Made by a program: the position numbers and the translations under genes | Notes under the pieces: model-generated | Told to the model about the DNA's origin: nothing | Database searches by the model: none | Seen by the model: only the letters and a program-made list of their open reading frames with translations | Origin: an uncultured Pirellulaceae bacterium | GTDB lineage: Bacteria; Planctomycetota; Planctomycetia; Pirellulales; Pirellulaceae | DNA: 39,134 nucleotides | NCBI GenBank assembly: GCA_937942355.1 | Contig: CALDEW010000162.1 | Location: forward strand, 1 to 39,134 | Direction: 5' to 3' | Shown: in pieces, positions 6,401 to 23,707 of the stretch | Layout: each line of letters starts with the position of its first letter | How positions within the stretch are numbered: position 1 is the stretch's first letter

Positions 6401-8062
6401 CCGCGAACGTCCGGGCTTGATTCGCGAAACGTCTTTGGCCAAACGTTCGATCAATCGGCTGGCCTGCTCATTGAGTATGCCCCAAAGGCGTTCGTTGCAT
6501 TGCGCTGCCCAGCGCCGAACAGGCACCGAAGCGTGGTTGTTTTGAAGCGATTGTATCGCAGGTTGAATCTGGCTTCTTATCAGTGTCACAATGGTAAAAC
6601 GCGATTGGTCTGGATCGCCTTGGGTCTGTGCTGCAAGTCTTGCCAGGCTTCTTTTGAGTACGTCGGTCGTCGCCCATAGCGCAGTTCTGAGCACAAATTC
6701 ATCTTGTTCACGTTTGAGCACATGTGGCAAGACTCTGAAAAAGCTAATGCTCTGCTGCGAGTGCAAACCAGGCCGCGCCGCAGTGCTGAGGGCCGATGCG
6801 CGAACCTTGGGGTCATCATCACTGAGAACTATTTGTCGCCACATGCGATGAGTCAATCGGTCATAAGAAAGAAACAACGCGTCCGCCGTTTTTTGTCGAA
6901 CGAAACTGCTGGTGTCCGGCTCCCAAGGTAACTCAATTTTGTGCCCGTCGCCTCGGCTGAGGAATTTCTCGATCAAGCTCCACGCGTGGCGACGCACAAA
7001 GATATCGTCTCCGGTGCCGGGACTACTCAAACGCTGATCAATAACATTCATCGCTGCGTCAGCAGAAAGATTCGAGAGAATCGTCAGTGCTTCGCATTGA
7101 ACCCAAACGTCAGCTGTTTTTTCTCGCGCCGAACGGTCAATGAATCCAAGCATCCGTTGGCTGACGATCGTCCATGCGATTCCGCTGGGCAATGCCTCCA
7201 GCATTATTCTTAGAGACTTTATTGCCGCACATTGAACCCGCACGTCTCCTTGGTATACAAAGGCTGGTAACAGCGATGCTTCGACCTTTAAGCGTTGCCA
7301 AATCCCTTTGATTCGATTGTTCAGATCGTCAGCGGCACCTCCGAAATGAGCCGCGTTAAGTTCTGTGGCGCGGTGAAAAATGTGAACCACGGTCGAAGCC
7401 AGTCGATCCAATGTGAAACACAGTAACAGTTCTTTCTCCCCTTGAAGTTTTAAAAATCGGTCGCTGAGCGCCTCTTCGTCGAACCAACGCGCGAATGCTC
7501 GTTCGTCTCTTACCAACGAGTCAGGATCCTGGTTTAAACATTGGGCGAAATGGAGGATCAGTTCCTTGCGAACCCTCTGTGTTGACGCCGCCGCCAAATT
7601 ACGACGAAACTGCTTATTTAGCGTGCTGAGCTTCGCAAGTTCTCCAAGCTGTGTTTCGATTTGTTGAAACAGGAAGTCGCAGAAAAAACGAGGAGCTTGG
7701 TTACCTTCGCGACCGTTCTGTAGGTTGATTTCATCGAGTAACCAGCGTTGATTGCTAAGCTGTCTGGCGTTGCGAACACTTTTTTCTGCAACCTGTTTTG
7801 TGTTTTTGATCCAATTTTGAAAGCCGGTGTCTAAGGTTGCGATGAGATTCGAGTTGAGTTTGACTTCATAGTCGTTGAGGCCTAACTCGAGTAGTTTGCG
7901 TACCTGTTTAAGCCCAATCGCCGAACCTAAAGATCGGAGCGTGGAACGTTCAGGCGGCTTTTTCGAAGGGTCTGGCTTGGCTAATTCTTCGATAGCGCGG
8001 ATTTGTTCGGTCTGAGACTTCAGGTGGTCTGTCGAAGGGTCAGATTGATCGACAGTCGCCAT
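3410..8062 (-). CDS. CapB/PgsB-like Mur-ligase-type poly-gamma-glutamate synthetase fused to a large N-terminal HEAT-like helical region
   Basis: P-loop 'GGWGTRGKSGTERLK' (about 5422-5466), 'KTTGCEAMFI', 'WECMALNPDYVNVLQHQWMLDDIATITNTYPDHEDIQGP' match PgsB ('GIRGKSTVTRL', 'KTTGTDA', 'SECMAVNPDYQ...NVLEDHMDVMGP'). Hydrophobic segments just upstream (e.g. LGELVLFACVTLLLVMIRHLWLNF). N-terminal ~750 aa is helix rich with HEAT-like blocks ('DVRVQCAAIKSLRIMLEALPSG', 'DPKVRASALSTAARPG'). Confidence 0.85.
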   Translation of the reverse strand: MATVDQSDPSTDHLKSQTEQIRAIEELAKPDPSKKPPERSTLRSLGSAIGLKQVRKLLELGLNDYEVKLNSNLIATLDTGFQNWIKNTKQVAEKSVRNARQLSNQRWLLDEINLQNGREGNQAPRFFCDFLFQQIETQLGELAKLSTLNKQFRRNLAAASTQRVRKELILHFAQCLNQDPDSLVRDERAFARWFDEEALSDRFLKLQGEKELLLCFTLDRLASTVVHIFHRATELNAAHFGGAADDLNNRIKGIWQRLKVEASLLPAFVYQGDVRVQCAAIKSLRIMLEALPSGIAWTIVSQRMLGFIDRSAREKTADVWVQCEALTILSNLSADAAMNVIDQRLSSPGTGDDIFVRRHAWSLIEKFLSRGDGHKIELPWEPDTSSFVRQKTADALFLSYDRLTHRMWRQIVLSDDDPKVRASALSTAARPGLHSQQSISFFRVLPHVLKREQDEFVLRTALWATTDVLKRSLARLAAQTQGDPDQSRFTIVTLIRSQIQPAIQSLQNNHASVPVRRWAAQCNERLWGILNEQASRLIERLAKDVSRIKPGRSRTYPNRWFDWVDEETLARIFAVLSQDDFGYEVQRTWLGMRVTRGPVFGLRLWRLVHEMRRSATDKRKGHPHTIGRVSTARLKAPSQILGELSETKVPGEPLMIANDGTWRPFLPLVDDLISALNMSWFKPATIKIVSSQGVTSITPPLKIGQRIAACYSLTRDFAKYASLRNWDGGTTDADTYIGSIIELGFNISFKPHRYDQSETEQAPPAKQAQEKSQPITDSSVSRFFGNVTQLSPVLLPLATHVLGASHYEILVGHLKRFTEYFSSPYENSLGELVLFACVTLLLVMIRHLWLNFSLRQSRKKIPFSIGGWGTRGKSGTERLKAALLGVMGHGLVSKTTGCEAMFIHSYAFGEPMEIPFFRPYDKATIWEQRNLINIAAKLKPSVFLWECMALNPDYVNVLQHQWMLDDIATITNTYPDHEDIQGPAGYNVAETISGFVPKKSLLVTTEEQMKPFVTLQCERNQTTMQSVGWLQSGLITDDILERFPYQEHPDNIALVSQMAANLGMTHEQSLKAMADDLVPDLGVLKTHPVSKVKTRRIEFTNGMSANERFGCMGNWKRLKYDTQDPWTEPTTWIVGVINNRADRVPRSRVFAKIIVEDISADRFFLIGTNLNGLKKFIDEAWQEKSATMTLKQNDGTWSTEHALEILKETAWNFRQPVAEKQITAQLEHMINSVLQEISDHGKPAPTIDGSALSPDSNLKELLESAAISSDYVEAILQHQSWLNRAYTEYRELREAIEDAPQNMANPLDNKYRTMLGHWFSRKLVVVTDSEATGEEVVSQIIQEIPPGFLARTMGMQNIKGTGLDFVYRFQAWDTCFEACEATQDRRLVVAEKAISALVAMPVIGQLCVEKLLETIAQCRNNKMLQRSDLQSQLDGLKTRVDEAQSALYQSSPSSSKLSNAPSETEKNSQLRKHMQTLHQWSYQWAEEFLDVNDSIRRREKADLIYRDYVTCRISRQRAVVELRKLNKRQKGGWLKEDSKKVRNKLRLKNL

Positions 8063-8079: not shown

Positions 8080-11000
8080 TCAGTCGGGATAGAAGTGATT
8101 GATTTTCGCAGCGCGTTCTTGTTTCAGAGAACGGAACAGAATCGAGTTTGGATTAAAGTCACGATAACCGCGACCGTCGTTGAAATAGTGATGGAAGAAA
8201 AAACCAACGCTCGTGCCGCCATCGAGAGCATGAGCAATAGAGAAATCAATCTCCGATCGGTGTCCGCCCCGATGCCAACGTTCGGCTTTTATGTCAACAC
8301 GGAATACGTTTTGAATCGCTGTTTCTATACGATCGTTATCGGAGAAAAACCCAGTCATTCGATAGTCAACGTGCAACTGAATAGGCCCAAACAGTTGATC
8401 CGATCCAATCTCAAAACCGGCATTGTCGGGAATTAGCTGATCTTCGTTACCGTTTAACCTCGGCTGGAAGTACACCCGCCGATCAAGGCAACACTGGTAG
8501 ACGAATCGATCCGAAAGTCGTAACCCGTAGCGATGGTTTCGTTTGTAGCGGGTGAAGATGTCTTGATCCAATTCACCCGGTGCGAAACCATTTACGTCCT
8601 CGCTGAGGAAGCGCCCGTGAAAACCCAGCCTCGGTTGATGGCTTAAGTTTGGACTGAAATGGTGCTTGCGAGAAATACTGCCCGACAGACCGGCGGTCCA
8701 TGGGAACGAATGAGAGTCAGGCAGCAGCGGAGTTCCGGCGTATTGCCCAAAGGCAAACACGTCCCATTGCGATTGCAACGGCCCCCATGAATCGGCTCCA
8801 CTGTCAGGCGCGTCATCTACTATACGGTTTGAGTTGAAGCGGCTGTGGCGGAATCCAAAGGTTGGACCTGAGCCCAACCGAGGCCGGAGGAGCCATTGGC
8901 TTTTGCGATATTCGTTTTTCCACTGGTCGTAGTAGTGATTGGTCAAACCCACTTCGAAGAATTGCCCCGGCTGCCCGCCATCAAGAAACTCTTCCAACGG
9001 ACGACGTGACCGGTAACCGAAGTGTAGTCCTGTCGTCCCGCTCTCTTGTAGCCCCAATTGCGACGAATCAACAACGTCCACGTCGACTTGGCTCGAATCG
9101 GGTGATCGCAGACCCAACAGATCCAAATCTTCAGCCGTGAAATTTTGTTCGACTTGATCAAAAACCTCCGCGACGGTCGCGTTGATCCAGTGACGATTCT
9201 TTTTGGATGGAGTGGGCGGAGCGCGATAGATCGGAGACGCTTCATTGTTAAGATTCATCTCATAAATTCGATATCGCGCGACTCTCCGGCCATCGCTGGG
9301 CACGAATTCGAACGTGCGAAGCTCCTCGGTGACGGGAATGAGCCTGGTGACGATCTCTTCTTCGATCAGTTCGTCGACGCGAATAACGTTGGGGCCGGAC
9401 ACACGGAAACGCAGCGGTTCTTCTTCGGTGGCAACGTGGTAAGAGCGCATCACCGAACCAAGGTTGGCCGAAACATCACTTTCGGGATCTACTGTGCCGT
9501 TGGCTAAGACTTCTTTAATATTCACATGGACATAGTGGTTGGCGTACGGTTGCGGCATCCACAGGGCGATTTGAGAATTCTCAGGCGAGATCTTTACGCG
9601 AAACGTCTCGACATCGTCATGGCCTTTTAAGGTTACTTGATCGTGTTTTCCGTTAATCTCCCACATCACCGTTGTTTCGGCGATGGGCAAGAATCCAACG
9701 CGCGGACGCCGCAAAGACACTTCTATCTCAGGCGAAAAAATGGAAGTCAGGTCGAGGATCAGAGGGTCGTCACCCAGGAGAGCCCGTTGCGGTATAAAAT
9801 TCCCCTGCAACGACTTGCGAATGCGAATGGGGGGATTGTCCGGACGCCAACGTTGGGCGCGCTCGGTGTAGACGCCGGCGCGCCGATCAAACTGCTCCAT
9901 CCGCTTCCATGTCGCGCCGGTTTTAACTTGGTTGAACAACCGCCGCAGGTCCTGGTGCTGAGGGTGTTCCTGAACAAGTTTCTGTAGCGACGCGATTTGG
10001 TTCATTCGCATCAAGTTGACTTCGGCGCCCTGTTGCTCGGTTGGGGCGATCGAATTGTCATAAGCGATTGCGATCGCCTGCTGGTAGACTTTATCTTGAT
10101 GCCGCAGCGCCAGCGGTGAGTGGACTGGCAAGATGCGGTTTTGCCAAACGGGCAGGTCACCAAGTTGCTCCGTCAGAAGCGGAGTAAGGTGCGACATATT
10201 GAGGTCGTCGCCGTTGAATTGAATGATCCCGTGCGCCAGCGAACGGCCGCCGACTTCTCGGGAGACCAACCGGACAAGATCTGGCGTTGTCTTTTCGACG
10301 CCGACGCGATTTTGGAACCCCGCCGGCAATTGAGGTTGGTGTGTGTTGCCAAGTCTTCCGACGATGACGGCGGCGAGCGTTGTTTCGTTGATCGGAGGTA
10401 GCACAGGCGAAAGGATCTCCGGTCGCATTGTCGAAACACGATGAATCATATCCACTTGGGCACTGCTTAATTGGATCTCGTTGAGGCCCTCGGGAAGATC
10501 AATCTCGGTAATGATTTTGTTCCCGGGAAACAGTTGGTCAGAGCGGCCTTCGATTTGTAGTGTCGTGGAAACGCTATTGTTGATGATCGGCACGCGCTGC
10601 AATTGGGAACCGTTGGTGATCTCCAGCACACCATTGACCGATTCGGGCGACTGCAAATCGTGTAGCGGACGCGATTCGATCGAGATTCGCGCGGGGCCTT
10701 GAATGGCGACCGTTGCAGGGGCAGCCTTCAATGAAGTAAAGAAGTCGTATCTTAGGTCTCTGTCAATTGAATAAATCGTTGCCATGCCGTAGCAGGATTT
10801 AACGACGGTCGGATCATACCGTTTGATTCTTGGTCCTGGTGTTTTATCCAAGTACCTTTGCCAGTCTTCAATCGCGGCCATGCGCGTCAAAAAATCAGGG
10901 CTGGTCAGACGAGAGTAAACATGGTCGCCGTATTTCCAATGCGTAATCCAAGTCTGCCCACGCTCGCCAGCGGCAGATAGCAGTTTGAAAGCTCGTTTGT

Positions 11001-13659
11001 ATTTGCCAAGTTGCAACAGTTTGATTCCGCCCCAAAAATTGCGCTGCTCCACGTCACTTACGCGTTTGAGTGATTGCTTGAAAGATCTCCACCACTGCAT
11101 TTGGAAACAGCAACGTAATCGCAACTCCTCGATGTCGTCGCCGGTAGCTTCCGGGGGAATCGCAAGAAACGCAAACCGGTAGCGGCCATTGGCGGCTAAC
11201 TGTTGGGCTAACTCAATCTCGTTGGCTTCGGTAGGGATTTCCGTAGCTCCGACGGCCAGAAAGTTCTCTCGATAGAAGTCTTCGTTGGGGCGGTCTGTTA
11301 TTTGATCGATCAGGGCCTGCAACAAACGCTTTTTCAGCGTCACATCTTTTGAGTGTAAGAGCCAACCTTGGCGCTCTTTTTGGGCCAAGAAATACTCGCC
11401 GGCGTGTTCCAATAACTCGGCGCGGGTCACAATGGCTTCGCTACGCTGCTTCGATTGGCTATGGTGTACGATAGCGGTCAGATGCTCCATCACCGCCGGC
11501 CAATTACCTGCGTTGGCAGCCGTTAAGGCGGCGTTGCGAGCCTGTTGGAGACGTTGGGTTGGCCATATTTCTTTGGGAGCCACCAGCTGATTGCCTGCCA
11601 CAATACCGCTGGTGAAATTTTCCACGTGGCTCTTGAGCAACCTTTGAACATCGAGCGAATCGTTGTCCAATTGGTCACCTGAGAACTGCTTCATCTCGGG
11701 CATCATACTGGCGTGTTTGGAGTGCTTGAGATACGCAGATTCCGAAAGTTCGGTGAAGGCAGCGACAAGAATCTGACAACCGATGTCAATCGCTTCGTTG
11801 GTACTGGATGTGGCGGTGACTTTCACTTCGCCGACATCACGGGGCAGAATCATCTCGGCGACGCCCGCCTTGATCATCGGCACCGTTTGATCGATTGACG
11901 CAAACGGACCGCCCCAAGGGCCACTGTCATAGCGGCTGTGGACCACCGAAAGACTGGCCAGCGCCGCTTCGGCGCGACCGGGAATAAATGCTTCGGTGGG
12001 TAGTGCCGAATCCGGTTCCAAGCTGAGCGTTACCGGAGGTCGGTTGTCGTACTGAACCTGAATGTTGACTGGCGAAGTAATTTGGTTGCGGTCGACAACC
12101 CATCGGATCAGCGTTCTACCCAGCGATTTTTGCGGTCGGAAACGCAGCCCACCACAGCCACAAGATTCATCACCGCCGGTTGCCAAGCGGTAGAGCGTAG
12201 TGGTCGGCAAGCGCCGGGCTGCTTCGATGATATGCTGTTCGCCGACGATGGTTTCGGTTTCGTTTTGCTTGGGCCGGCGGATGGAGCGCGATGGAAATCC
12301 AACGTGACGCGGGGCGGCGGCGGGGGTGACTTCGATGGGGGGAAAATCGCGAAAGTACGTGAAACGATTTTTGAGCCGGCCAACAAGTTCTGCAGAGGAA
12401 ACCTCATCGCCGAAGTCGCTTTCCCCGCGCCGACGGGAGGCGATTGCCCGCATCCACATGTAAGCGCGCAGGCCACCGTGCAGCACGCTGTTGTCGCGCG
12501 CAACCTCCAGTAGCCGAGGGTAATTAAGGTACGGATCCCACAGCGGATCGGTCGGGGCAGGGTTGATGACCGTGTCGCCTTGGAGGTATTGGTCCAGCGT
12601 TTTGCCGTCGTCTATCCACTCCTGTTCCAGCCATGAATCTTCGTCGGTCAACCGTTTCTCCATAGCGGGAAAATTAAAGCGGCAATTGGTCAACGGGTTG
12701 CAAAGATTCAGTCCGACTGCGTTGGCGCGCACGTATCCCGGGTGAGAGAGTTCGATTTCAACCGACTCGCAATCGTTTTCAATGTCCAGGTACTCGAATT
12801 CGCGGCCGCCGATGAGTCTTTCAACCCCGCCCACAAATTCGCGGTGCATGCGCTGCGGCAGCGTGTCGAAAAGCAGTGTTTTGTGGTACACACCATCAAT
12901 GAAAATCTTGACCCAATAAAACTGGTGTCGGCTCGCGTCGAGATCGTACTTCAGCCGCGTCTCCAAACGCAATCGCGTGCTTCCATCAACCTCCAAGGGG
13001 TAACGGCGACCTGATTTTAAAGGAGTGTAGTACAGTGGCTTCCTGCCTCGGTCGTCGCTGATCTGAACACGTTTATCATCGCACGCGATTTCACATTGAT
13101 AGTAATCCAGCGAGCGGTGCTGATAACGGGCTGAAGTGAATACGGCAACCGTCATCGCGCAGGGCGAATTTGGGGAACAGAGTACACGTCCAATCGAAAT
13201 GCGCGGATCGTCAGGAGCACCGACCATTGAGGTGGCGTCGGTGGAAATTGCCGGTTTGAGTTTGCGGAAGAGCCCCGTTCCGTCGGAGGTCCACAGCTGC
13301 AACATGTCGTCAGCAATGGTTTCAGGTCCGCAACTGAGGACGCGAATGTATTCATTTTCGAGGACTTGAAAGTCCACCGATTCGCCCGGGGAAAGGTCAA
13401 TGGTGCACAGCTTGTAGGCGCGGTTGAACCTCGGGGCCGGACCCGCAATGTGTTGCAGGCCATCGGTCAAGTTCTCCCACTTCAGCGGAGCGCGCTGAGG
13501 AAGTCGAACTTCTTTCTTGCTGTCGAGCGTCGTTTCTGCACGCAGTTGGCCCGCGATCAACAACAAAATAACAAACAGAAATACCCTGATTAGCGATGGC
13601 AGGCGCGCAGAATCCCAACCTTTGATTAAGCATCGATGGCGTGCGTAATTTGGGATCAT
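8080..13659 (-). CDS. Very large secreted protein with TPR-like middle region and candidate C-terminal outer-membrane beta-barrel; candidate polymer exporter
   Basis: 1859 aa; signal peptide (SLIRVFLFVILLLIAGQLRAE); TPR-like 'QQARNAALTAANAGNWPAVMEHLTAIVHHSQSKQRSEAIVTRAELLEHAGEYFLAQ'; last ~300 aa consists of alternating-pattern strands with aromatic residues ('PTFGFRHSRFNS', 'WDVFAFGQYAGTPL', 'RYGLRLSDRFVYQCCLDRRVYFQPRLN', 'IDFSIAHALDGGTSVGFFFHHYF'). Confidence 0.65.
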   Translation of the reverse strand: MIPNYARHRCLIKGWDSARLPSLIRVFLFVILLLIAGQLRAETTLDSKKEVRLPQRAPLKWENLTDGLQHIAGPAPRFNRAYKLCTIDLSPGESVDFQVLENEYIRVLSCGPETIADDMLQLWTSDGTGLFRKLKPAISTDATSMVGAPDDPRISIGRVLCSPNSPCAMTVAVFTSARYQHRSLDYYQCEIACDDKRVQISDDRGRKPLYYTPLKSGRRYPLEVDGSTRLRLETRLKYDLDASRHQFYWVKIFIDGVYHKTLLFDTLPQRMHREFVGGVERLIGGREFEYLDIENDCESVEIELSHPGYVRANAVGLNLCNPLTNCRFNFPAMEKRLTDEDSWLEQEWIDDGKTLDQYLQGDTVINPAPTDPLWDPYLNYPRLLEVARDNSVLHGGLRAYMWMRAIASRRRGESDFGDEVSSAELVGRLKNRFTYFRDFPPIEVTPAAAPRHVGFPSRSIRRPKQNETETIVGEQHIIEAARRLPTTTLYRLATGGDESCGCGGLRFRPQKSLGRTLIRWVVDRNQITSPVNIQVQYDNRPPVTLSLEPDSALPTEAFIPGRAEAALASLSVVHSRYDSGPWGGPFASIDQTVPMIKAGVAEMILPRDVGEVKVTATSSTNEAIDIGCQILVAAFTELSESAYLKHSKHASMMPEMKQFSGDQLDNDSLDVQRLLKSHVENFTSGIVAGNQLVAPKEIWPTQRLQQARNAALTAANAGNWPAVMEHLTAIVHHSQSKQRSEAIVTRAELLEHAGEYFLAQKERQGWLLHSKDVTLKKRLLQALIDQITDRPNEDFYRENFLAVGATEIPTEANEIELAQQLAANGRYRFAFLAIPPEATGDDIEELRLRCCFQMQWWRSFKQSLKRVSDVEQRNFWGGIKLLQLGKYKRAFKLLSAAGERGQTWITHWKYGDHVYSRLTSPDFLTRMAAIEDWQRYLDKTPGPRIKRYDPTVVKSCYGMATIYSIDRDLRYDFFTSLKAAPATVAIQGPARISIESRPLHDLQSPESVNGVLEITNGSQLQRVPIINNSVSTTLQIEGRSDQLFPGNKIITEIDLPEGLNEIQLSSAQVDMIHRVSTMRPEILSPVLPPINETTLAAVIVGRLGNTHQPQLPAGFQNRVGVEKTTPDLVRLVSREVGGRSLAHGIIQFNGDDLNMSHLTPLLTEQLGDLPVWQNRILPVHSPLALRHQDKVYQQAIAIAYDNSIAPTEQQGAEVNLMRMNQIASLQKLVQEHPQHQDLRRLFNQVKTGATWKRMEQFDRRAGVYTERAQRWRPDNPPIRIRKSLQGNFIPQRALLGDDPLILDLTSIFSPEIEVSLRRPRVGFLPIAETTVMWEINGKHDQVTLKGHDDVETFRVKISPENSQIALWMPQPYANHYVHVNIKEVLANGTVDPESDVSANLGSVMRSYHVATEEEPLRFRVSGPNVIRVDELIEEEIVTRLIPVTEELRTFEFVPSDGRRVARYRIYEMNLNNEASPIYRAPPTPSKKNRHWINATVAEVFDQVEQNFTAEDLDLLGLRSPDSSQVDVDVVDSSQLGLQESGTTGLHFGYRSRRPLEEFLDGGQPGQFFEVGLTNHYYDQWKNEYRKSQWLLRPRLGSGPTFGFRHSRFNSNRIVDDAPDSGADSWGPLQSQWDVFAFGQYAGTPLLPDSHSFPWTAGLSGSISRKHHFSPNLSHQPRLGFHGRFLSEDVNGFAPGELDQDIFTRYKRNHRYGLRLSDRFVYQCCLDRRVYFQPRLNGNEDQLIPDNAGFEIGSDQLFGPIQLHVDYRMTGFFSDNDRIETAIQNVFRVDIKAERWHRGGHRSEIDFSIAHALDGGTSVGFFFHHYFNDGRGYRDFNPNSILFRSLKQERAAKINHFYPD

Positions 13660-13998: not shown

Positions 13999-14949
13999 CT
14001 ATTTACTAACGCCACGCACCAGACTGGCAAAGAATGATCCTCGAACGCTAGCGTCGGTATCCAGTTTCTCACGGAACTCTCGGTTGAGTTCGAGATGTAG
14101 GAAGTTTGGGCAGCCAAGGCCATGAGCAATTTCAGCCTGACGATTTGTCGTTCCACCAAGTTGCTGAACATCGATCGGGAACAATCGAGTGTGTTCGGCA
14201 CTGAATTTTGTTTTGAGTTCGAGCGCTGACTGTCGCGCCGATCGTCCGGGGAACTTCGTGGAGTCGCTGATGATAATCTTGGCGAATTTTGCCGCGCCCG
14301 TTTTGTCTTTGTTGGTGAACCCATGGATCTGAAAAATCGCTACATCAGGTTGTACTTTGATCACCGCCGATGTGAAAGCGTTGATGAAATGCAACGGGGT
14401 ATGCGATAGATCGATTGCGCTTCGGTGGATGGTGTTGAGCGCGATTGCAGAGACGGCCTGTTCATGAAAAAGTTTGGTGGCTATCGATCCGGTCATCAGA
14501 TCATTGTAACGATGAGGAGCTTGTAGAACGATGCGCGATTTTCTTTCGGTGTGAAATGCGTAAGCGCCTCGTCCGCGCTGGTGATCGGGGTGTTCGCGCA
14601 CAACGAACAGCTTACCCGAAGGTGACTCCAACAACTGCCAGTTGTGCGACGCCCAACGATTTTGCAAATCTTCAATCGCAATTTCTTCTTTCGAATTTCT
14701 TATCGCGCTAAGGGTCGCGATGAGCAGCGTTTCAAATTGATCTACATTTTTCTGTTCGACGGTAATCATTGCGTCGAAGGGTTTTTGTGGTTTAAGTTCT
14801 GATGCAATCCAGTTTTGGTCGGCCGATATTTGCGGCGACGTTTTTACCTGCGGCGGTGTTTCTAATTCTTGTGCGCACAGGTTTGTGGCACTGATTGATA
14901 GAACCAGTCCGATCACCATCATTGGCATAAGATTGTTGAAATGATTCAT
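13999..14949 (-). CDS. Secreted hydrolase-like protein (candidate N-formylglutamate amidohydrolase/PghP-like metal hydrolase)
   Basis: Start at Met 14949 gives signal peptide MNHFNNLMPMMVIGLVLSISATNLCAQE. Conserved-looking polar motifs 'APHRYNDLMTG', 'NTIHRSAIDLSH', 'IFQIHGF', 'LHLELNREFRE'. ORF track start is 14973. Confidence 0.6.
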   Translation of the reverse strand: MNHFNNLMPMMVIGLVLSISATNLCAQELETPPQVKTSPQISADQNWIASELKPQKPFDAMITVEQKNVDQFETLLIATLSAIRNSKEEIAIEDLQNRWASHNWQLLESPSGKLFVVREHPDHQRGRGAYAFHTERKSRIVLQAPHRYNDLMTGSIATKLFHEQAVSAIALNTIHRSAIDLSHTPLHFINAFTSAVIKVQPDVAIFQIHGFTNKDKTGAAKFAKIIISDSTKFPGRSARQSALELKTKFSAEHTRLFPIDVQQLGGTTNRQAEIAHGLGCPNFLHLELNREFREKLDTDASVRGSFFASLVRGVSK

Positions 14950-15027
14950 GGTTAGTCTACTTTCCCAAAGCAATCATGATGTGCCAGTATGTACTACTTC
15001 AACATGTTTCTTCAAGTTTGAAAAGCG

Positions 15028-17610
15028 CTACTGGTTTGCGTGTCGTGATTGAATTTGATTGGTGTGAGCGTTTTGGACTTCATCCATCGGAATCGATTGA
15101 TAGAGCAAAACAAAGCCCCCTTCTTTTTGGTCGACACGTTCCGTTTTGATCGTATAGCGCCCCGGCGGAAGATCCGGGCCGAGTCTGACAAAGCAGCGGT
15201 GTTCTACGTCAAGTTCCGCGTCGGTGCCAATCAAAATGGCGCTCTGTCGTTGTGGGCTGGATTTGAGATCGTAAACTTGGTGCAAGGAAGTCAGGCTTTC
15301 CACGGGGCCCGATTTCTGCATCTGAAGTTGGTCTTCAGATTCGATTTTGACGCTAATTTTGCAACGTTCTTCTCCTGATGATTTACGGTAAATCAGTAGC
15401 GTCAAGACTTCATCCAGCGGCGTGGTTTTTACGTGCTCGAACTCCAGTTTTCCGTTCTCTAATTTTGATGCGGTGCGTTTCAAATAACGTTTCGCGTCTA
15501 CGACCTTTCCGCCACTGAGGAACATTCGAATTTCAGGTGGCCCTAGGAGCGTGATGGTTGAGGTGTCGTCAAACGGATCGAGCTTCAATCGAACGCTTCC
15601 GCGCGATGAACTTAGTTGCTCGCGCTGAACGATCTTTCCATTTTGTTTAACGATCAATTCGCTCTTGGAGGAGTTGGGAGCGACGTAAATCAATCGGTAG
15701 TTGGGAGGGATACCTAAGCCATAGTCTTGGACCGAGTAGGATTGACCATTGTTCATTTCGTAAAACGATGAACCGCGATTGGTTTTGGTGATAACGTTTT
15801 CCAGAACAGCAGGAGCAAGCAATTGTCGTCCAATCCACGGACCGGCAGGTTCATAGCGTCGAAATAGGAATTCACGCGGACCGACCAGCTCTTCGGCTTC
15901 GGTGTCCCGCGGGCGGGTTTGCGTGGCCAAGACGAAGGACCGGTTGTCAGAGATCATCTTCAAATTCTGATCGGGTTGCAGGTTGTACCATTTTCTGTGC
16001 GACTTGAATTGACGCTCAAATGGGTGATGGTCTTCAGGCAGCTTTGTCACGACCGGAAGGTGATTGGGACGCACCGACGCGTTGACCAGAAACGGTACGT
16101 TATCCGATTTAAACAGGATCTTGCTTACTTCTGGAGGTATCGAGAAGTAGAAACGCTTGAACTCAGAAACCAAATGAGCTTCACCACCGCTCCAGAGTTG
16201 GTCGTAGTTTGAGATCTCAGGCTTGATCGGAAGTTTGCCACTTTCGATGACTTGATCTTCGTCGTTAAGCCAAGACCAGTGAAGGAATTTGAGCTCATCC
16301 ATTGCGACATAGGATCCATCACTGCTGCGAGAACTTGCCAGGACTTCATCCGAAGCGAACACGTCTCCAAATGCCAATCGACAGGTAATACGAAACGGAG
16401 TCGGTTGGTCTTGATAATGCGAGACGTGAAAACTGACAGGAACATCGTCAGCTAAAAAGACTCGGAGGTTGCCTGTTTTTGAGGTTATGTCAACGGATTG
16501 CCCATAGGCTACATCTGTATCGTTAATCTCGACCGAAGGGGCGTCGGATTGGTCATGCGCCCACGTTGCCGACCATCTGGCGTCGTGGGTTGATTCGAAT
16601 TCAATGAGCCCACCGCTGACGGGGAAAGTAAATTCTTGGGCCGACTCGTGAAGCGTTCTTTCCCAGACCGTGCTCGGGCCATGGTCGCTGGGAAAGAAGC
16701 GCACGGTGAGATATATCGGGTTGAGATTGGATTCATTTGTACGTTTGATCGACAATCCAAATTTGCCTTGTCTCTCTGGTAAGGGGAGCGTGATTCTCCG
16801 AGCGGCCGACAGTGAATTGGCGTTTGTCGGGGCATTCTCTGTGACTTCTTGGTCGTCAATTTCGCCGATGAAATAGAGGTGTCGAAGTGTGGTTTTGTTC
16901 AACGTGGGGGCCGGCAACCATTGCCATCTCAGCAAACTTGCGCGTTCGGAGGGCGTCAAAAACTTTTGGTCAAAGACGAAGTATTTAGCCAGTTTTCTCC
17001 GGTTGACTACCCGGATTTTTCGCCAGGTCGAAGGCTTGTCGAAGTGAGGTCTTTCGTGTTTGGTGCGCACTCGCGCGACGATTTCTGATATCTGAGGATC
17101 TGAATCTGTCGCGCGAATTCGAAGGATGGCTGGTCTCAAACCAGCCGGATCAATTGGGATTTGAATGAATCGCGTTTGGGTTGCGACGCGATTTGTTTTT
17201 CCAAACATCAATGGGTTGATGAGCGTGCCTTGGTCCATATCAATCAGTTGCCGTATCCGCGTTCGCGATTCGTAGGTGTGTTGACTTATCAACTCTCCAT
17301 CTTCGTCCAGTAACTGATACTCGATGCTGTATCTCCAACCCGTGCGCGGGTCGGACTGATTCTTTTTGGGCATCTCGGTCGTGTTGAGTGCTCCGTTGGT
17401 CATCACTCGGATGCTGTGTGCGTCCGGCGAAAGATGAAACTCTGCCCAATCTCTATGACTTAGTAAAACGGTGCTGACGCGTTTGGTGTCGTCGCGATCA
17501 ATCTCTTCAGAGGTGGGCTTGAAACCAATGCCTTGCAACAGGCCGCTGAAGTAGCCACACATCAAGAGAACAATAGGGAATAAGATCCAAAAGTAGTCGC
17601 GGTATCTCAT
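15028..17610 (-). CDS. Membrane-anchored periplasmic protein of unknown family, within CapB/CapC locus
   Basis: 860 aa; N-terminal single TM (YFWILFPIVLLMCGYFSGLLQGIGF); remainder beta-rich in appearance; ATGA start/stop overlap with the upstream CapC-like gene (17607-17610). Confidence 0.75.
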   Translation of the reverse strand: MRYRDYFWILFPIVLLMCGYFSGLLQGIGFKPTSEEIDRDDTKRVSTVLLSHRDWAEFHLSPDAHSIRVMTNGALNTTEMPKKNQSDPRTGWRYSIEYQLLDEDGELISQHTYESRTRIRQLIDMDQGTLINPLMFGKTNRVATQTRFIQIPIDPAGLRPAILRIRATDSDPQISEIVARVRTKHERPHFDKPSTWRKIRVVNRRKLAKYFVFDQKFLTPSERASLLRWQWLPAPTLNKTTLRHLYFIGEIDDQEVTENAPTNANSLSAARRITLPLPERQGKFGLSIKRTNESNLNPIYLTVRFFPSDHGPSTVWERTLHESAQEFTFPVSGGLIEFESTHDARWSATWAHDQSDAPSVEINDTDVAYGQSVDITSKTGNLRVFLADDVPVSFHVSHYQDQPTPFRITCRLAFGDVFASDEVLASSRSSDGSYVAMDELKFLHWSWLNDEDQVIESGKLPIKPEISNYDQLWSGGEAHLVSEFKRFYFSIPPEVSKILFKSDNVPFLVNASVRPNHLPVVTKLPEDHHPFERQFKSHRKWYNLQPDQNLKMISDNRSFVLATQTRPRDTEAEELVGPREFLFRRYEPAGPWIGRQLLAPAVLENVITKTNRGSSFYEMNNGQSYSVQDYGLGIPPNYRLIYVAPNSSKSELIVKQNGKIVQREQLSSSRGSVRLKLDPFDDTSTITLLGPPEIRMFLSGGKVVDAKRYLKRTASKLENGKLEFEHVKTTPLDEVLTLLIYRKSSGEERCKISVKIESEDQLQMQKSGPVESLTSLHQVYDLKSSPQRQSAILIGTDAELDVEHRCFVRLGPDLPPGRYTIKTERVDQKEGGFVLLYQSIPMDEVQNAHTNQIQSRHANQ

Positions 17611-20600
17611 CGTCCACCCACCTCCAGCCAGAGTTTATGCGAGTTGATGAACTTGCGAACCGTTTCACTCCCAAGGTCTTTCGCATAAAAGGACTCAGTC
17701 CCGATGTAACCAGTGAGGTTTGCAATGGCGGCCAATTGTTGCTTAGGTGTTAAGATGATCAGAAATGTCTGCCCGGAGATTTCGTCTAAAACACATTTGA
17801 ATGTCCATTTTGAAAACGTTTCCTTGACGTTGATGAGTTTGATAACGTCGAAGTTACCGACGTAATTTTTGCATGCGGATCTAAGCTGGGGCGGTAATTG
17901 CCTGCCGGAAGTGGTCCTGACAGAGTCCCAAGGTTGTTTGGTTTGGGCTGCGATCTGTTCGGAGAGACTTCCAATCGTAACGTCAATGCTGGAGGCGTTC
18001 ATCTGGGCGATGAGCGCACTGTGTTCGTTTTGTTGGCGGTATTTTGTTCTCAGGGCAGGGGAGAGCCAAAGACTGATGACTTCTTTATTCTTGGAAACTT
18101 GGATGGCGGCAGCCTTCATCAGAATGCCCAGTTCGTAGCCTGCTGTGTTGGTGGAACCATCAACAAACCCGATTGAAAACTCATCATCGATTAGTTTCTG
18201 TGTAAACCACTTCTTTAAAGGCGACAGTTGTTGGAAACTCGTTTCGCCTTCGTCCGACGCCAATACAATATCGGAATTGACAGGCGCCTGGATCGCGCGA
18301 GCCTGGCAGAGCATGTAAGGGCGGTCGCCAAGTTTTCGAAATAGTACCTGGCGAACCAAATTGAAGAGGTTTCTGCGATTGGCGGCTTTGGAAATGTCAG
18401 CTGAACCATCGCTGTTGGCGCGAGGATGGGCTCCAGCGACTAACAGCGTTGAAGCGCGTGGGCGCTGAAACAGACTTGCTCCGAAATCGAACGAACGGCT
18501 CTCAAACAAAGGCCGTGGAATCTCGATAGCGAGGTCCTCTTGCAGGGAAGGGCGGAAAATGAACGTTCCCCAGCCCTTCTTTTGCCTTGAGGTTTCGCTG
18601 AGCGCGAAATACTGATCACTATTTTCGGTGTCCAAAATCACAGAAACTTCGTAACCAACGATCTGGGCCGCAGTTCGGATCGCATGTATTCTTTCCTTCT
18701 TGTCCTTATTCAGCCAGCGCGGAAGTTTATTGCCGTTGGGCGAGAACGAAGTGTCTGGTTGTGTTTCTCCAACGAGTTCTATCAGCGGGCTGACAACTTC
18801 GTTGTCCATGAACAGCATCTCTTCAAGTTTTGCAGCTACGTACTGATTGGAATTCTGTTTGCAGATGTTTTCTTTGACTGTTTTCAGGAAGTCGGAAAGC
18901 GGCTGACGGACGATCGCGAGTTCGTTTGCACGAACACCATCTAAATGAGTTTCAGTTTGATGAGTTTCAGTTTTGGGCTTTGGAGCAAGTGTCCGGGATT
19001 GTGGCGGAGCCAATGACATCACCAATAACCGGCGACGGGCGTTCTTTGAAAGAAGTAGTTCTGCATATTCGTTCGACTTGTGGATCCTGCTTTTTATCGG
19101 TGACTTAGACCATTTCACTCCAAATTGGCCAATGATCTCTTTAAGTTCTGTCAGTGGCATCGCTTGAGGTAGCCCTGACACCACGTACACTTGCGAAGGA
19201 GGCTCGGATTCTTTTTGGAGCTGGTTTTGATTGGATTTTTGCCATAACGATTGAGTCATCGCGCGAATTTGCACAGCCTGTCGCGCGCCAAAAGTCTTGT
19301 GGAATTCGGAGAACATCGTTGCGTTGTATGCCGTTACGTCGGAGGTGCCATCGATGTTGGTTGTTTGCCCAGCCCCTGCAATGGCAAGACCATAGCAAGG
19401 GAGTTGGTGCATTAAGGCCAATCCAGATTCCAATGTGCCCCATTCATCCAATGGAGTTGGCACTTCAAAGCAAACGCCTTCGGGATGATTGATGTCGATG
19501 GCAAACATTCCCCAGCCATGTGTTGGCTGGCGCTCTGTCAGAAACAGAATGTCGTCTGCGGAGATGATAAGCGAATAGTTTACCGCCGCCAGCCTATCGC
19601 AAATGAGTTGGATTGCATTGGGATCGTTGGTGTCGGGTAAGCGTTTGAGATCCCTCAATGCTGACCGGAATATCGCAAGTTCCGCGTAGGATGGAGGTTG
19701 GTAACTTCCGGCTTCTTTCTTTTCGTATAGCAATGGTTTGCTCTGCCGAATCAGTTGGCTGATTGGTTGGTCGGAGCGCACCGCAACTGAGGGCTGGGGC
19801 AACGTTTGAGAAGTTGCAGCTGCAACCGAGTGGCTTAAGAGGTAGCTTGACCAAGAAAAAAGAGCAAATCCAATCAGGCTTCCGGCGATGCCGCCAACCA
19901 AAGAAACTTGCAACGTCCCTTTGAGCATACGGACCATCAGTTGTTTATCATGTGCTTTGACGGCCATCAGGGTTGACAGTAAGTAGCCCATTCCGAAAGC
20001 GTCGGTAACTTGAGTATTGCTGGAGAAAAATGGAATGGCGTGGGCGTAAAACAGTCTCACTGCGAAACACACGGTGAAGAAGAAAAGCAACTTTCTTCCT
20101 CCTTGCATCCCTATATTACGTAGCCACGGCGTACCCAGTAGGAGGTTGCCGAGGGAAAAAATCAGCATGCATTCTGCGCACGAAGCGACAATTTTCATCG
20201 GCGCATGAAGCATCATGCCAAGTAACGCAGGGATCAGAATTCCATTGAAATCCCAAGCGTATCGCAGGTTGATCCAAGACGCCAAATATGCGGTGCAAAC
20301 CAAGATGATGTAGGATTTTGGGCTGGCCATTAAGGACGAAGAAATGTCCTCGTACATCAAATTGAAATTCGAAAGGTTCAGATTAGTCAGAGAACTGAGA
20401 AAGACGCAAATGATAAAATACGTTACCCCAAGGGTCGTCAAGAATGGCATGAATCCTCGAAGAAGGCCTGGTTTCCAAAAGTAGTTAGCGATCAGAGCAA
20501 CGATAATCAGTCCGAAGCTTTGGAGCTCGTTGCGATAATCGAAATTCCATCCAATTTCGGTGACGATATATTTCCCCAGCCCCGGTAGTAACCAACCATC

Positions 20601-20936
20601 GAAGGTGGATCGCACAATCACACTGACCACCACGATGACAAAGAATCGGTCGCGACCAAAGAAACTGCTCCACCATGAAAATTGCCTTAAACAGTCAGAA
20701 AGCCAGCGGGACAGTAAATACGTCACGACTGCTTCCAAAAGAATTACGCTCGCCGTCGTTGGGCGTGAAAGCAAAAGGGGAACCAAATAACCCGGCACTA
20801 CCAAGGCCGACAGGTTCCAACCCAGTTTGAGGTTGAAGAAAACCGCAACGACGACCCCGATCCAAACCGTCGTGGTGAGCGTTACCGACGCTGAGTCGAT
20901 CGGGAAGATTGGGAGGGGAAAGAAGTCTAACATCAA
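17607..20936 (-). CDS. CapC/PgsC-like membrane protein (two CapC-like units) fused to two hydrolase-like repeats
   Basis: 'LGWNLSALVVPGYLVPLLLSRPTTASVILLEAVVTYLLSRWL...FGLIIVALIANYFWKPGLLRGFMPFLTTLGVTYFI' resembles PgsC 'TGILPAGLVVPGYLALVFNQPVFMLVVLFISILTYVIV...GVIVPGLIANTIQRQGLPLTIGTTILLSGATFAI'; second unit 'YAWDFNGILIPALLGMMLHAPMKIVASCAECMLIFSLGNLLLG...FGMGYLLSTLMAVKAHDKQLMVRMLKGTLQVSLVGGIAG'; C-terminal repeats starting 'HGWGMFAID' and 'KGWGTFIFR'. Confidence 0.83.
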   Translation of the reverse strand: MMLDFFPLPIFPIDSASVTLTTTVWIGVVVAVFFNLKLGWNLSALVVPGYLVPLLLSRPTTASVILLEAVVTYLLSRWLSDCLRQFSWWSSFFGRDRFFVIVVVSVIVRSTFDGWLLPGLGKYIVTEIGWNFDYRNELQSFGLIIVALIANYFWKPGLLRGFMPFLTTLGVTYFIICVFLSSLTNLNLSNFNLMYEDISSSLMASPKSYIILVCTAYLASWINLRYAWDFNGILIPALLGMMLHAPMKIVASCAECMLIFSLGNLLLGTPWLRNIGMQGGRKLLFFFTVCFAVRLFYAHAIPFFSSNTQVTDAFGMGYLLSTLMAVKAHDKQLMVRMLKGTLQVSLVGGIAGSLIGFALFSWSSYLLSHSVAAATSQTLPQPSVAVRSDQPISQLIRQSKPLLYEKKEAGSYQPPSYAELAIFRSALRDLKRLPDTNDPNAIQLICDRLAAVNYSLIISADDILFLTERQPTHGWGMFAIDINHPEGVCFEVPTPLDEWGTLESGLALMHQLPCYGLAIAGAGQTTNIDGTSDVTAYNATMFSEFHKTFGARQAVQIRAMTQSLWQKSNQNQLQKESEPPSQVYVVSGLPQAMPLTELKEIIGQFGVKWSKSPIKSRIHKSNEYAELLLSKNARRRLLVMSLAPPQSRTLAPKPKTETHQTETHLDGVRANELAIVRQPLSDFLKTVKENICKQNSNQYVAAKLEEMLFMDNEVVSPLIELVGETQPDTSFSPNGNKLPRWLNKDKKERIHAIRTAAQIVGYEVSVILDTENSDQYFALSETSRQKKGWGTFIFRPSLQEDLAIEIPRPLFESRSFDFGASLFQRPRASTLLVAGAHPRANSDGSADISKAANRRNLFNLVRQVLFRKLGDRPYMLCQARAIQAPVNSDIVLASDEGETSFQQLSPLKKWFTQKLIDDEFSIGFVDGSTNTAGYELGILMKAAAIQVSKNKEVISLWLSPALRTKYRQQNEHSALIAQMNASSIDVTIGSLSEQIAAQTKQPWDSVRTTSGRQLPPQLRSACKNYVGNFDVIKLINVKETFSKWTFKCVLDEISGQTFLIILTPKQQLAAIANLTGYIGTESFYAKDLGSETVRKFINSHKLWLEVGGR

Positions 20937-20944
20937 CCGGGCCT

Positions 20945-23707
20945 TTACTGCTGGGTTGACGAGGTTGGTGGATCATCGGTGCCGATCACGGTAGGCATCG
21001 CGACGGGCGACGAATTCTCTTGTTCCGCACGGACGTTGGATAGAGTTAGGGAAACGGTGACGCAATGCGGAAGGTTCTCGACGCGGAAGCCACCGTTCCA
21101 GGGTTCGACCCAAGCATCAATTTGCTGAAGTTGATCAATCTGAGCCGTGTCAAGGTTGAGGTATTTTTTGGTCTTTCTTTTGGTGCCTTGGTGCGCTGCC
21201 TGGTCGAGTGACTTTCGAAGTGTGTCCACTGGCGTACCTCCGCCTTGATTGGTAAATCGGAATTCAAATCCGTCTACCTGGGGAAAGATCTCGAACTGAA
21301 TTTCACTTTCGTCAAACGCATTGCCCAGTAGAAACACGAGTATTTTGCTAAATGCACGATCGAGTAAGATCGGATTTGCAAAAGCCATAATTTCTTCACT
21401 GATAGATTCGTCCTCGCGGATCGTAATTGAGCGCTGCGTCAATTCTTCTTCGAAGCTGCCTTTCACAGATCGCCAGACCGAAAGCGTGTTGATCAAAAAA
21501 AAGTTCTCAGGTGATTCGGTTACTTGGCGACTGTGTAGATTCTGGCAGCTTTCGAGCGCTGAGACAATTTCGGACACGGTGTTTCCGACTGATCCAAACA
21601 GGTCGTTGAGCGACTTGTTTTCAATATTGGGATCCTTCAGCAGCGATGTTGTGCGCTCTAGATGATTGGCTTTTTCGAGAATTTCAGGGGCCAGCGCGGT
21701 AGAAAGCTCACGGTTCCATTTTCGAATCTCATCAAAGATGCGTCCATCCACGACTTCTAACAATAGACCATGAGTTTCGATGGAAGTACGGGCTTCGTCT
21801 TCTTGAAGCTTCATCGGTTTGACGTACATCATCATTGGCACATCGGACAATGAGGAGGCAACGAGGTGCTTTCCACTTTTGTGGTGAAGGATCGCTTCGC
21901 GAAACGTTCGGCGTGCGCTATTTACCGACTGACCAGTGATGGCTGCAATGATATCGACGCAGGTAGAACCAGAACCAGAGAGTTCCGTTTTCTGAAGCAG
22001 GCGATTGAGGTTGGAGTTTCGACGAATGATACGCCCGTAAATGTCAAAGGTGGCCATCGCAGATTCCGAGCAATCGAATGCGATGTCGACTCTTTCGATC
22101 AGGTCGTCCTGGAGCTGGCTGTTGGCCTGAATGTCGACAAACGATCGTTCCTCGGGAAGGGTGCTGCAGCGCTCAATGAATTCCAGTCGCCGAGTATTTT
22201 CATACAGGGTTTGTTGACAACCGACGACCAGTTGTGTCATTTCCTCGCAGAACCGTGAGAGAAACGAATCAAAGTCGTTCCATTTCTCAATCGCTGCGGC
22301 TTCAATTGCGATCGCAATGACGCCGTATGTTCTCAAACCGTGAACCAAAGGCAGCATGTACTCGACTTCCTTGATGCCGGGATTAGATGTGAAGAAACCT
22401 CGATTTGGGCTTTGATAGGGGTGCTTGCTTTGAATTGCATCCCAATAAGGCGAACGCTTGTAGTCCAGCCGCTTTTCGTAGATTTGCGAATAGTCGCAAC
22501 CGATCGAATGGACTCGTCTGAGATGCGTCGCACCAGGAAGCAGTTCCATCATCACGACGCGCGTCGGTTGAAACATTTGGTAGGTAACGTCACCGATGGC
22601 TTGCCACGGGTCGCCCTCGAATCGTCGTTTTACGTGGGCTTCGCGGACGCTGGCGCGGATTTTCCAAAACTGAACATAGTCTTCGAGTTTTGAAAAACGT
22701 TGCATTGCCGCTACGAGAGTAGAAACGAGACCAGCCAGTAGCAGCGCCGTGGCTGGAAGCCAAACGCTCGTCAGCCAGTAGCAAGCGGTAATCAGCCCCA
22801 GCCAGAGGATCACGTGCGCGAAAGTTAAAGAAGGCAGCCAATGTTTCCTTGCTTGCCGCGCAATTTGAAACGAGATCAGCGTGACCAGCGCAAGCAAAAT
22901 AAACGTAGGAACCGATGCCAATTTGGTCGCGTAGTTTTCATTGACTAAACTCGCGACCATATTGCCTCTGATCTCCAAGCGACTCATGCGGGAATCACCA
23001 TGAGTCGTCGGTGTCAGCATGTGAAAGCGACGTGAATATCTGGGGCCAATGATGACGATCTTGTCTTTGATCAATTCTCTAATCAAGTTCCCCTTGAGAA
23101 GCGAATTGGCGTCGATGTGAGGAAGCGTATTTGGGCCTCCCGCATAGCGAATGCCATAAGTTGTCGAGGGAAGGTTATCGGAAAGTGGTGAAACACTTTT
23201 GGCGATTTCAAACTCGAACGAATTAAGCTTCGAACCTGCTTGCTCTGTTGAAACGACTCCGTTGCGGTAAATCGGTTGGGAACAATGGTGGAGATCAACG
23301 AAGCCGATTCTAAACGTGTTCCTGGTGGTGGCCGATCCAGAGGCAAGCAGTTTGTCTAACGGAAATCCAAGGGTCAAAACCGATGCGTGCGGGACGTGAT
23401 TGAGTGGGCTAAAATCGCTGACCGAACCTGTCGCTTCGATCGCGATTTTCTTGGGCGATTGCCGCTGGATCGAATCAACCAAAGAAATCAATGCTGGCGA
23501 CGCGGATTCAAGAAGCTTGGGGGACGCATAAACTAAAAGAATCTGGTCTTCTTGCTGAGAATTAGGCAGCAGCCAGAGACAGGCGTCGCTCAACAGATCA
23601 TCTGTCCAGCGAAACCAGGTCAGACTGTAAAAAACAGCCAGAGCCGAAAAAATACACAGTACCGCCGCTAAGCCGAAATCACTGCGTCGAAATTGTGCCA
23701 GCTTCAT
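20945..23707 (-). CDS. CHASE2-domain sensor with GAF/PAS-like region and degenerate histidine-kinase-like C-terminus
   Basis: CHASE2-like extracytoplasmic region ('KDKIVIIGPRYSRRFHMLTPTTHGDSRMSRLEIRGNMVASLVNENY') followed by three hydrophobic segments; PAS-like 'DCSESAMATFDIYGRIIRRNSNLNRLL'; HATPase-like 'NPILLDRAFSKILVFLLGNAFDESEI' and 'FRFTNQGGGTPVDTLRKSL'. No canonical H-box found. Confidence 0.7.
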   Translation of the reverse strand: MKLAQFRRSDFGLAAVLCIFSALAVFYSLTWFRWTDDLLSDACLWLLPNSQQEDQILLVYASPKLLESASPALISLVDSIQRQSPKKIAIEATGSVSDFSPLNHVPHASVLTLGFPLDKLLASGSATTRNTFRIGFVDLHHCSQPIYRNGVVSTEQAGSKLNSFEFEIAKSVSPLSDNLPSTTYGIRYAGGPNTLPHIDANSLLKGNLIRELIKDKIVIIGPRYSRRFHMLTPTTHGDSRMSRLEIRGNMVASLVNENYATKLASVPTFILLALVTLISFQIARQARKHWLPSLTFAHVILWLGLITACYWLTSVWLPATALLLAGLVSTLVAAMQRFSKLEDYVQFWKIRASVREAHVKRRFEGDPWQAIGDVTYQMFQPTRVVMMELLPGATHLRRVHSIGCDYSQIYEKRLDYKRSPYWDAIQSKHPYQSPNRGFFTSNPGIKEVEYMLPLVHGLRTYGVIAIAIEAAAIEKWNDFDSFLSRFCEEMTQLVVGCQQTLYENTRRLEFIERCSTLPEERSFVDIQANSQLQDDLIERVDIAFDCSESAMATFDIYGRIIRRNSNLNRLLQKTELSGSGSTCVDIIAAITGQSVNSARRTFREAILHHKSGKHLVASSLSDVPMMMYVKPMKLQEDEARTSIETHGLLLEVVDGRIFDEIRKWNRELSTALAPEILEKANHLERTTSLLKDPNIENKSLNDLFGSVGNTVSEIVSALESCQNLHSRQVTESPENFFLINTLSVWRSVKGSFEEELTQRSITIREDESISEEIMAFANPILLDRAFSKILVFLLGNAFDESEIQFEIFPQVDGFEFRFTNQGGGTPVDTLRKSLDQAAHQGTKRKTKKYLNLDTAQIDQLQQIDAWVEPWNGGFRVENLPHCVTVSLTLSNVRAEQENSSPVAMPTVIGTDDPPTSSTQQ

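Follow-up and report, generated by a model that had tools for sequence, protein, structure and literature searches.

A predicted PghP-like hydrolase in a planctomycete PgsB/CapC-type gene cluster and its degenerate homologues within the CapC subunit

BcsZ and AlgL are hydrolases of synthase-dependent polysaccharide secretion. Few hydrolases of the poly-gamma-glutamate (gamma-PGA) type are known, among them PghP and PghL (PF05908, MEROPS M86), which are mainly phage-borne. The zinc ligands of PghL are H41, E46 and H102, with E165 as the distal glutamate, and PghP mutants in the equivalents of the PghL zinc and glutamate residues are impaired (PMC6506827). The phage enzymes PghP and PghL are degradative, as is PgdS (PMC4497714, PMC6506827), and in some capsule systems an enzyme, CapD, is needed for anchoring (PMC6506827).

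The standalone protein described here resembles PghP and PghL in its fold, in the motif order APH...E/D, LHG and (Q/H)xE...R, and in predicted residues that align with their zinc ligands and glutamate. It differs from them in having only about 13% identity, in escaping the PF05908 model, in carrying an Asp at spacing 4 as the second predicted zinc ligand rather than a Glu at spacing 5, and in possessing an N-terminal extension and a GRG/GWG motif; moreover, it is a secreted cellular protein encoded in a synthase cluster. With N-formylglutamate amidohydrolase (FGase, PF05013) it shares a fold match (PDB entry 2q7s), but the profile match is unconvincing and the genomic context is different. The neighbouring synthase subunit shares the membrane domain of PgsC/CapC (PF14102, TIGR04011), to which it adds a second CapC domain in tandem and two degenerate hydrolase-like repeats. 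By analogy, a polymer-cutting hydrolase at this locus would be comparable to BcsZ and AlgL in polysaccharide secretion, where the genes for a periplasmic hydrolase, a synthase and an exported TPR/beta-rich protein likewise sit together. Unlike in those systems, the polymer here would be of the peptide type, the hydrolase fold is unrelated, and twins that appear catalytically dead are fused to the synthase.

Organization of the locus

The window, meaning the whole stretch of DNA that was analysed, comprises 39,134 nucleotides from an uncultured Pirellulaceae bacterium (GCA_937942355.1, contig CALDEW010000162.1, positions 1–39,134 of the forward strand). The cluster genes are as follows.

20945..23707, minus strand: CHASE2-domain membrane sensor (PF05226, E 2.7e-10), the first gene of the cluster, conserved in position
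17607..20936, minus strand: 1,109-aa CapC fusion, in which a pair of CapC domains is followed by two complete but degenerate repeats and, at the C-terminus, a possible half repeat
15028..17610, minus strand: protein of 860 aa, exported or anchored and with no assigned fold, adjoining the hydrolase gene in conserved clusters
13999..14949, minus strand: exported standalone member of the hydrolase family (316 aa with the ATG at 14949 as start)
8080..13659, minus strand: 1,859-aa exported protein with a signal peptide, a TPR-like middle and a beta-rich C-terminus
3410..8062, minus strand: 1,550-aa PgsB-type Mur ligase fusion, an 830-aa N-terminal region followed by the ligase

The standalone open reading frame that an earlier note on this DNA had placed at 13999–14949 was confirmed, on the minus strand (14949..13999); translation could also begin at a TTG at 14973. 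The N-terminus of the 316-residue protein is signal peptide-like. No sequence match to the protein was found in Pfam, NCBIfam, PHROG or the PDB, and the PF05908 model matched neither it nor any of 19 relatives. The family is nameless in Pfam, NCBIfam and PHROGs, the exception being PEP-CTERM models that match two paralogues, and no description of the family or of the CapC-fusion architecture was found in the open-licence literature searched. A lipocone paper from 2025 was set aside as not relevant, its text matching solely via the unrelated term 'CapCone'. Our best reading is that the protein represents a new, unnamed, PghP-like family, one more beside the gamma-PGA-type hydrolases already described.

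The CapC domain of the fusion exceeds the Pfam cut-off for PF14102 (E 1.4e-30), and tandem CapC stretches at 20457–20861 and 19938–20285 are followed by approximately 720 soluble residues; against the TIGR04011 equivalog model the fusion scores 62.3 bits, below the cut-off of 96.45. The PgsB-type ligase has an intact P-loop (GGWGTRGKSGT) and matches TIGR04012 with an E-value of 1.5e-63 and 214.8 bits, just under the cut-off of 222.7. The approximately 830 residues ahead of the ligase are conserved across relatives and show only a weak HEAT-repeat match. The cluster probably makes a poly-glutamate-type polymer, and since both synthase components fall below the NCBI equivalog cut-offs, this polymer may be related to, but distinct from, gamma-PGA. 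Duplication of CapC within one open reading frame was also seen in other planctomycete fusions and in the PgsC of Chroococcidiopsis, a cyanobacterium.

Homology of the standalone protein and the CapC-fused repeats

The soluble part of the CapC fusion contains the following units.

18951..19775, minus strand: fused repeat 1 (H146>T, D150>E, H209>R)
17913..18911, minus strand: fused repeat 2 (H146>R, D150>E, H209>R, E287>W)
17610..17912, minus strand: possible N-terminal half of a third repeat, with a beta-beta-beta-beta-helix-beta order in the predicted model

The proposal that the standalone protein is homologous to these repeats, previously made from alignment by eye, is borne out by blastp and by profile comparison. 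A single-sequence blastp search connects the standalone protein with repeat 1 (E 5e-5). In hhalign, profiles of independent orthologues, 16 for the standalone protein and 12 for each repeat, matched the standalone family to repeat 1 with a probability of 98.5% (E 1.5e-15) and to repeat 2 with 97.3% (E 2e-11), and the two repeats to each other with 99.6% (E 2.8e-24). With 24 standalones, the E-values against the two repeats were 3.8e-26 and 1.7e-24; reversed-profile decoys gave 0.024 and 0.79. Chance similarity is ruled out by these scores relative to the decoys. The order of helices and strands is identical in the standalone domain and both repeats, as compared in two predicted models.

In a tree, the standalones, first repeats and second repeats form three groups, each with a single origin. 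The CapC fusion therefore appears to be old, predating the split of the sampled planctomycete lineages. Searched alone, the fused region has no significant match in the PDB (best E 0.016; 5onj E 0.03, probability 0.91), so its fold assignment rests on homology and on the matching secondary-structure order. The positive-inside pattern of the CapC loops, a simple hydropathy argument, places the repeats outside the inner membrane, in the periplasm, into which the hydrolase is also exported.

Fold and predicted active site

The predicted model of the standalone protein (pLDDT 87.1, pTM 0.83) has M14-type zinc hydrolases as its best fold matches. These include carboxypeptidase A (PDB entry 1pca, E 6.8e-5), FGase (2q7s, E 7.2e-5), PghL with bound PGA (5onj, E 8.1e-5), PghP (3a9l, E 1.4e-4) and a second phage enzyme (21dc, E 5.4e-4); Csd4 is also among them. 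The structures 5onj, 3a9l and 21dc were each matched with a probability of 1.00, and both proteins that the earlier note had named for structural comparison, PghP and FGase, are thus among the matches. Because the TM-scores are modest, about 0.3–0.56, these matches are evidence of fold class and not of close kinship. A fold search against viral models returned a Bacillus phage gamma-PGA hydrolase among its matches. No phage homologue was found in the phage collection or in viral contigs.

A PF05908 profile of eight sequences, including the YndL/PghL-annotated phage gene L089, aligned to the standalone profile in hhalign local mode with an E-value of 9.7e-5 and a probability of 58%, against 0.85 for a reversed decoy. 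The alignment sets APH-x3-D on APHGGGIE, QLHGF on LHG, and HLELNREFR on VQIEMSRALR, so that H146, D150, H209 and E287 correspond to H41, E46, H102 and E165 of PghL. The spacing of H146 and H209, 63 residues, equals that of H40 and H103 in PghP. For FGase there was no Pfam match to PF05013, and hhalign gave an E-value of 0.0072 and a probability of 2.3%; membership of that family was rejected as unsupported by the profile. The predicted active-site features are encoded at these positions.

14500..14514, minus strand: H146...D150 (APHRYND), the first and second predicted zinc ligands (equivalents of PghL H41 and E46), in 24/24 standalones
14401..14424, minus strand: R176 and D180 (each 24/24) and H183 (21/24), in the region aligned to the PghL 'LHITS' substrate segment
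14320..14331, minus strand: Q207-x-H209-G210, predicted zinc ligand 3 (equivalent of PghL H102)
14071..14097, minus strand: H285-x-E287 ... R293, predicted catalytic glutamate (PghL E165) and a conserved Arg

The motifs that had been singled out from the sequence fared unevenly. The His residues of 'PH' (H146) and 'IHG' (H209) are invariant in the standalones, and the Glu of 'E-x-N' is conserved, but its Asn is not. The His of 'IHR', earlier proposed as a metal-binding or catalytic residue, occurs in 17 of the 24 standalones and is not among the predicted zinc ligands; the invariant residue there is R176.

Loss of active-site residues in the fused repeats

Residues were tabulated for 24 standalones and 29 fused repeats (14 of repeat 1 and 15 of repeat 2). 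H146, present in every standalone, is found in none of the first repeats and in 1 of the 15 second repeats (that of L023). Position 150 is Asp in all standalones and Glu in 13/14 first and 13/15 second repeats. H209 is kept in 23/23 aligned standalones, and the 24th, L027, has the His on direct reading; all 29 fused copies have Arg or Lys at this position. E287 is kept in the 21 standalones aligned there. Each of the 15 second repeats has Trp instead, and the first repeats, for which the local alignment is less certain, mostly carry other hydrophobic residues. In a fuller alignment L027 has Ala at the position of E287, and the L036 sequence ends close to a contig edge. R293 is retained in most fused copies. 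A search of G044, G071 and G102 for a transitional fused copy whose catalytic residues are still in place found none.

The earlier note had seen both fused repeats as degenerate and as lacking histidines that the standalone protein keeps. The degeneracy holds for both, in which the metal-site histidines and catalytic glutamate are gone; the one exception is the L023 second repeat, which keeps a His at the position of H146. Because both metal-site histidines and the base are lost, and a basic residue is fixed in the metal site, the fused repeats are read as pseudoenzymes. Judging from their residues, they probably bind or guide an anionic chain as it leaves the membrane.

Proposed role

We infer, with a probability of roughly 60%, that the standalone protein is a periplasmic zinc amidohydrolase that cuts the gamma-glutamyl-type polymer of the adjacent synthase, and that its pseudoenzyme copies in CapC probably bind the chain or guide it. 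It would belong to an unnamed family within the M14/M86-like fold (carboxypeptidase A, FGase, PghP), with zinc held by H146, D150 and H209 and with E287 as the general base. Acting on the PgsB/PgsC polymer, it might trim chains, release them from the synthase or clear the periplasm. The CapC subunit carries two copies of this ancestral domain, in which both histidines and the glutamate were lost and Arg or Lys was fixed at the second metal-binding His; the dead repeats would then hold the chain while the hydrolase trims or releases polymer at the synthase. The homology suggests that polymer cutting and polymer gripping derive from one ancestral enzyme, and the locus would be a clear example of a polymer-degrading domain that lost its activity and became part of a polymer synthase.

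The same zinc site could instead serve transfer, attaching the polymer to a cell-envelope acceptor as a stand-in for the CapD transpeptidase. The protein is exported, linked to a synthase and present in one copy per cluster, and the need of some capsule systems for an anchoring enzyme also counts for transfer. CapD, a gamma-glutamyltranspeptidase, has a different fold, however, and the nearest solved structures are hydrolases; we regard transfer as very unlikely.

The hydrolytic reading can be extended, tentatively and with more doubt than confidence, to a trans-envelope machine devoted to secreting a poly-gamma-glutamate-type polymer from bacteria with two membranes. Such a machine would dispense with PgsA/CapA and combine pseudo-hydrolase polymer clamps on the membrane synthase, in which Arg/Lys replaces the metal-binding His, a live hydrolase for trimming or release, and a TPR/barrel exporter in the outer membrane. 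PgsA/CapA was not found in the source genome, whose completeness is 83%; 8 of 10 other carriers, one of them 99% complete, likewise yielded none. The 1,859-aa protein may be the outer-membrane exporter, with the barrel suggested by beta periodicity at its C-terminus; TPR_16 is matched in one member, the C-terminus has no Pfam or PDB match, and the protein falls in no database family. Two questions become testable here: how poly-amino acids are exported in double-membraned bacteria, and how PgsC-type subunits handle the chain.

Gene linkage across genomes

Cluster genes flank the standalone gene in all 11 genomes of the family that carry it. Where the contig is long enough, the order is CHASE2 sensor, CapC fusion, 860-aa gene, hydrolase, 1,859-aa gene and PgsB fusion; G400 and G422 depart from this in that their 1,859-aa and PgsB fusion genes do not adjoin each other. 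The order CapC fusion, 860-aa gene, hydrolase is conserved across planctomycete lineages. In a phylum-wide sample, CapC occurs in 5 of 8 genomes carrying a standalone gene and in 15 of 294 overall (p 8.7e-6, uncorrected for relatedness). Family members with no CapC detected in the genome are those of G073, G102 and G185, of which G073 and G102 are incomplete.

The linkage to pgs/cap genes extends from Planctomycetota to Cyanobacteriota and Actinomycetota. On Chroococcidiopsis pCHRO.01 (L039, 3251–8433), pgsB, a 333-aa double-CapC pgsC, a hydrolase homologue and a PilZ-HlyD protein lie in a row. In Streptomyces finlayi a homologue lies beside capA, with pgsB two genes beyond, and in S. clavuligerus a homologue also lies beside capA. 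The earlier description of the protein as gamma-PGA hydrolase-like gains support from its fold, the residue correspondence with PghL, the signal peptide and this synthase-linked context in three phyla.

This linkage bears on whether the protein might be an amidase acting on peptidoglycan or peptides and resembling Csd4 or FGase, with its proximity to the synthase reflecting envelope remodelling and not polymer cutting. Csd4 and FGase do appear in the fold list, and one member is encoded in a tail module of phage type, close to a gene for a peptidoglycan endopeptidase. The recurrence of pgs/cap linkage in three phyla and the direct homology with domains that form part of the CapC subunit argue against an amidase, which we consider unlikely.

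A second member of the family is encoded in the same genome (L003, 1072–2232; G000:C502). It ends in a PEP-CTERM tail, retains every predicted catalytic residue, and matches the standalone protein and both CapC repeats.

A nutritional or dispersal depolymerase, degrading finished polymer outside the cell with no part in secretion, would suit the existence of this PEP-CTERM paralogue and the degradative nature of PgdS, PghP and PghL. Against it, the standalone gene keeps a fixed place behind the CapC fusion gene and the 860-aa gene, and in G081 (L022, 9257–13999) the 860-aa gene and the hydrolase are fused in one 1,580-aa open reading frame, as expected of a machine part; such a depolymerase is rather unlikely, and cutting of polymer at the synthase remains the preferred reading.

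Two further layouts were observed. The PilZ and HlyD-like arrangement in Chroococcidiopsis is reminiscent of alginate Alg44. On a Corynebacterium ureicelerivorans plasmid (L062, 4981–7197), the domain lies inside a 738-aa protein in a phage-like tail module that neighbours the peptidoglycan endopeptidase gene; this layout hints at a role as a surface depolymerase.
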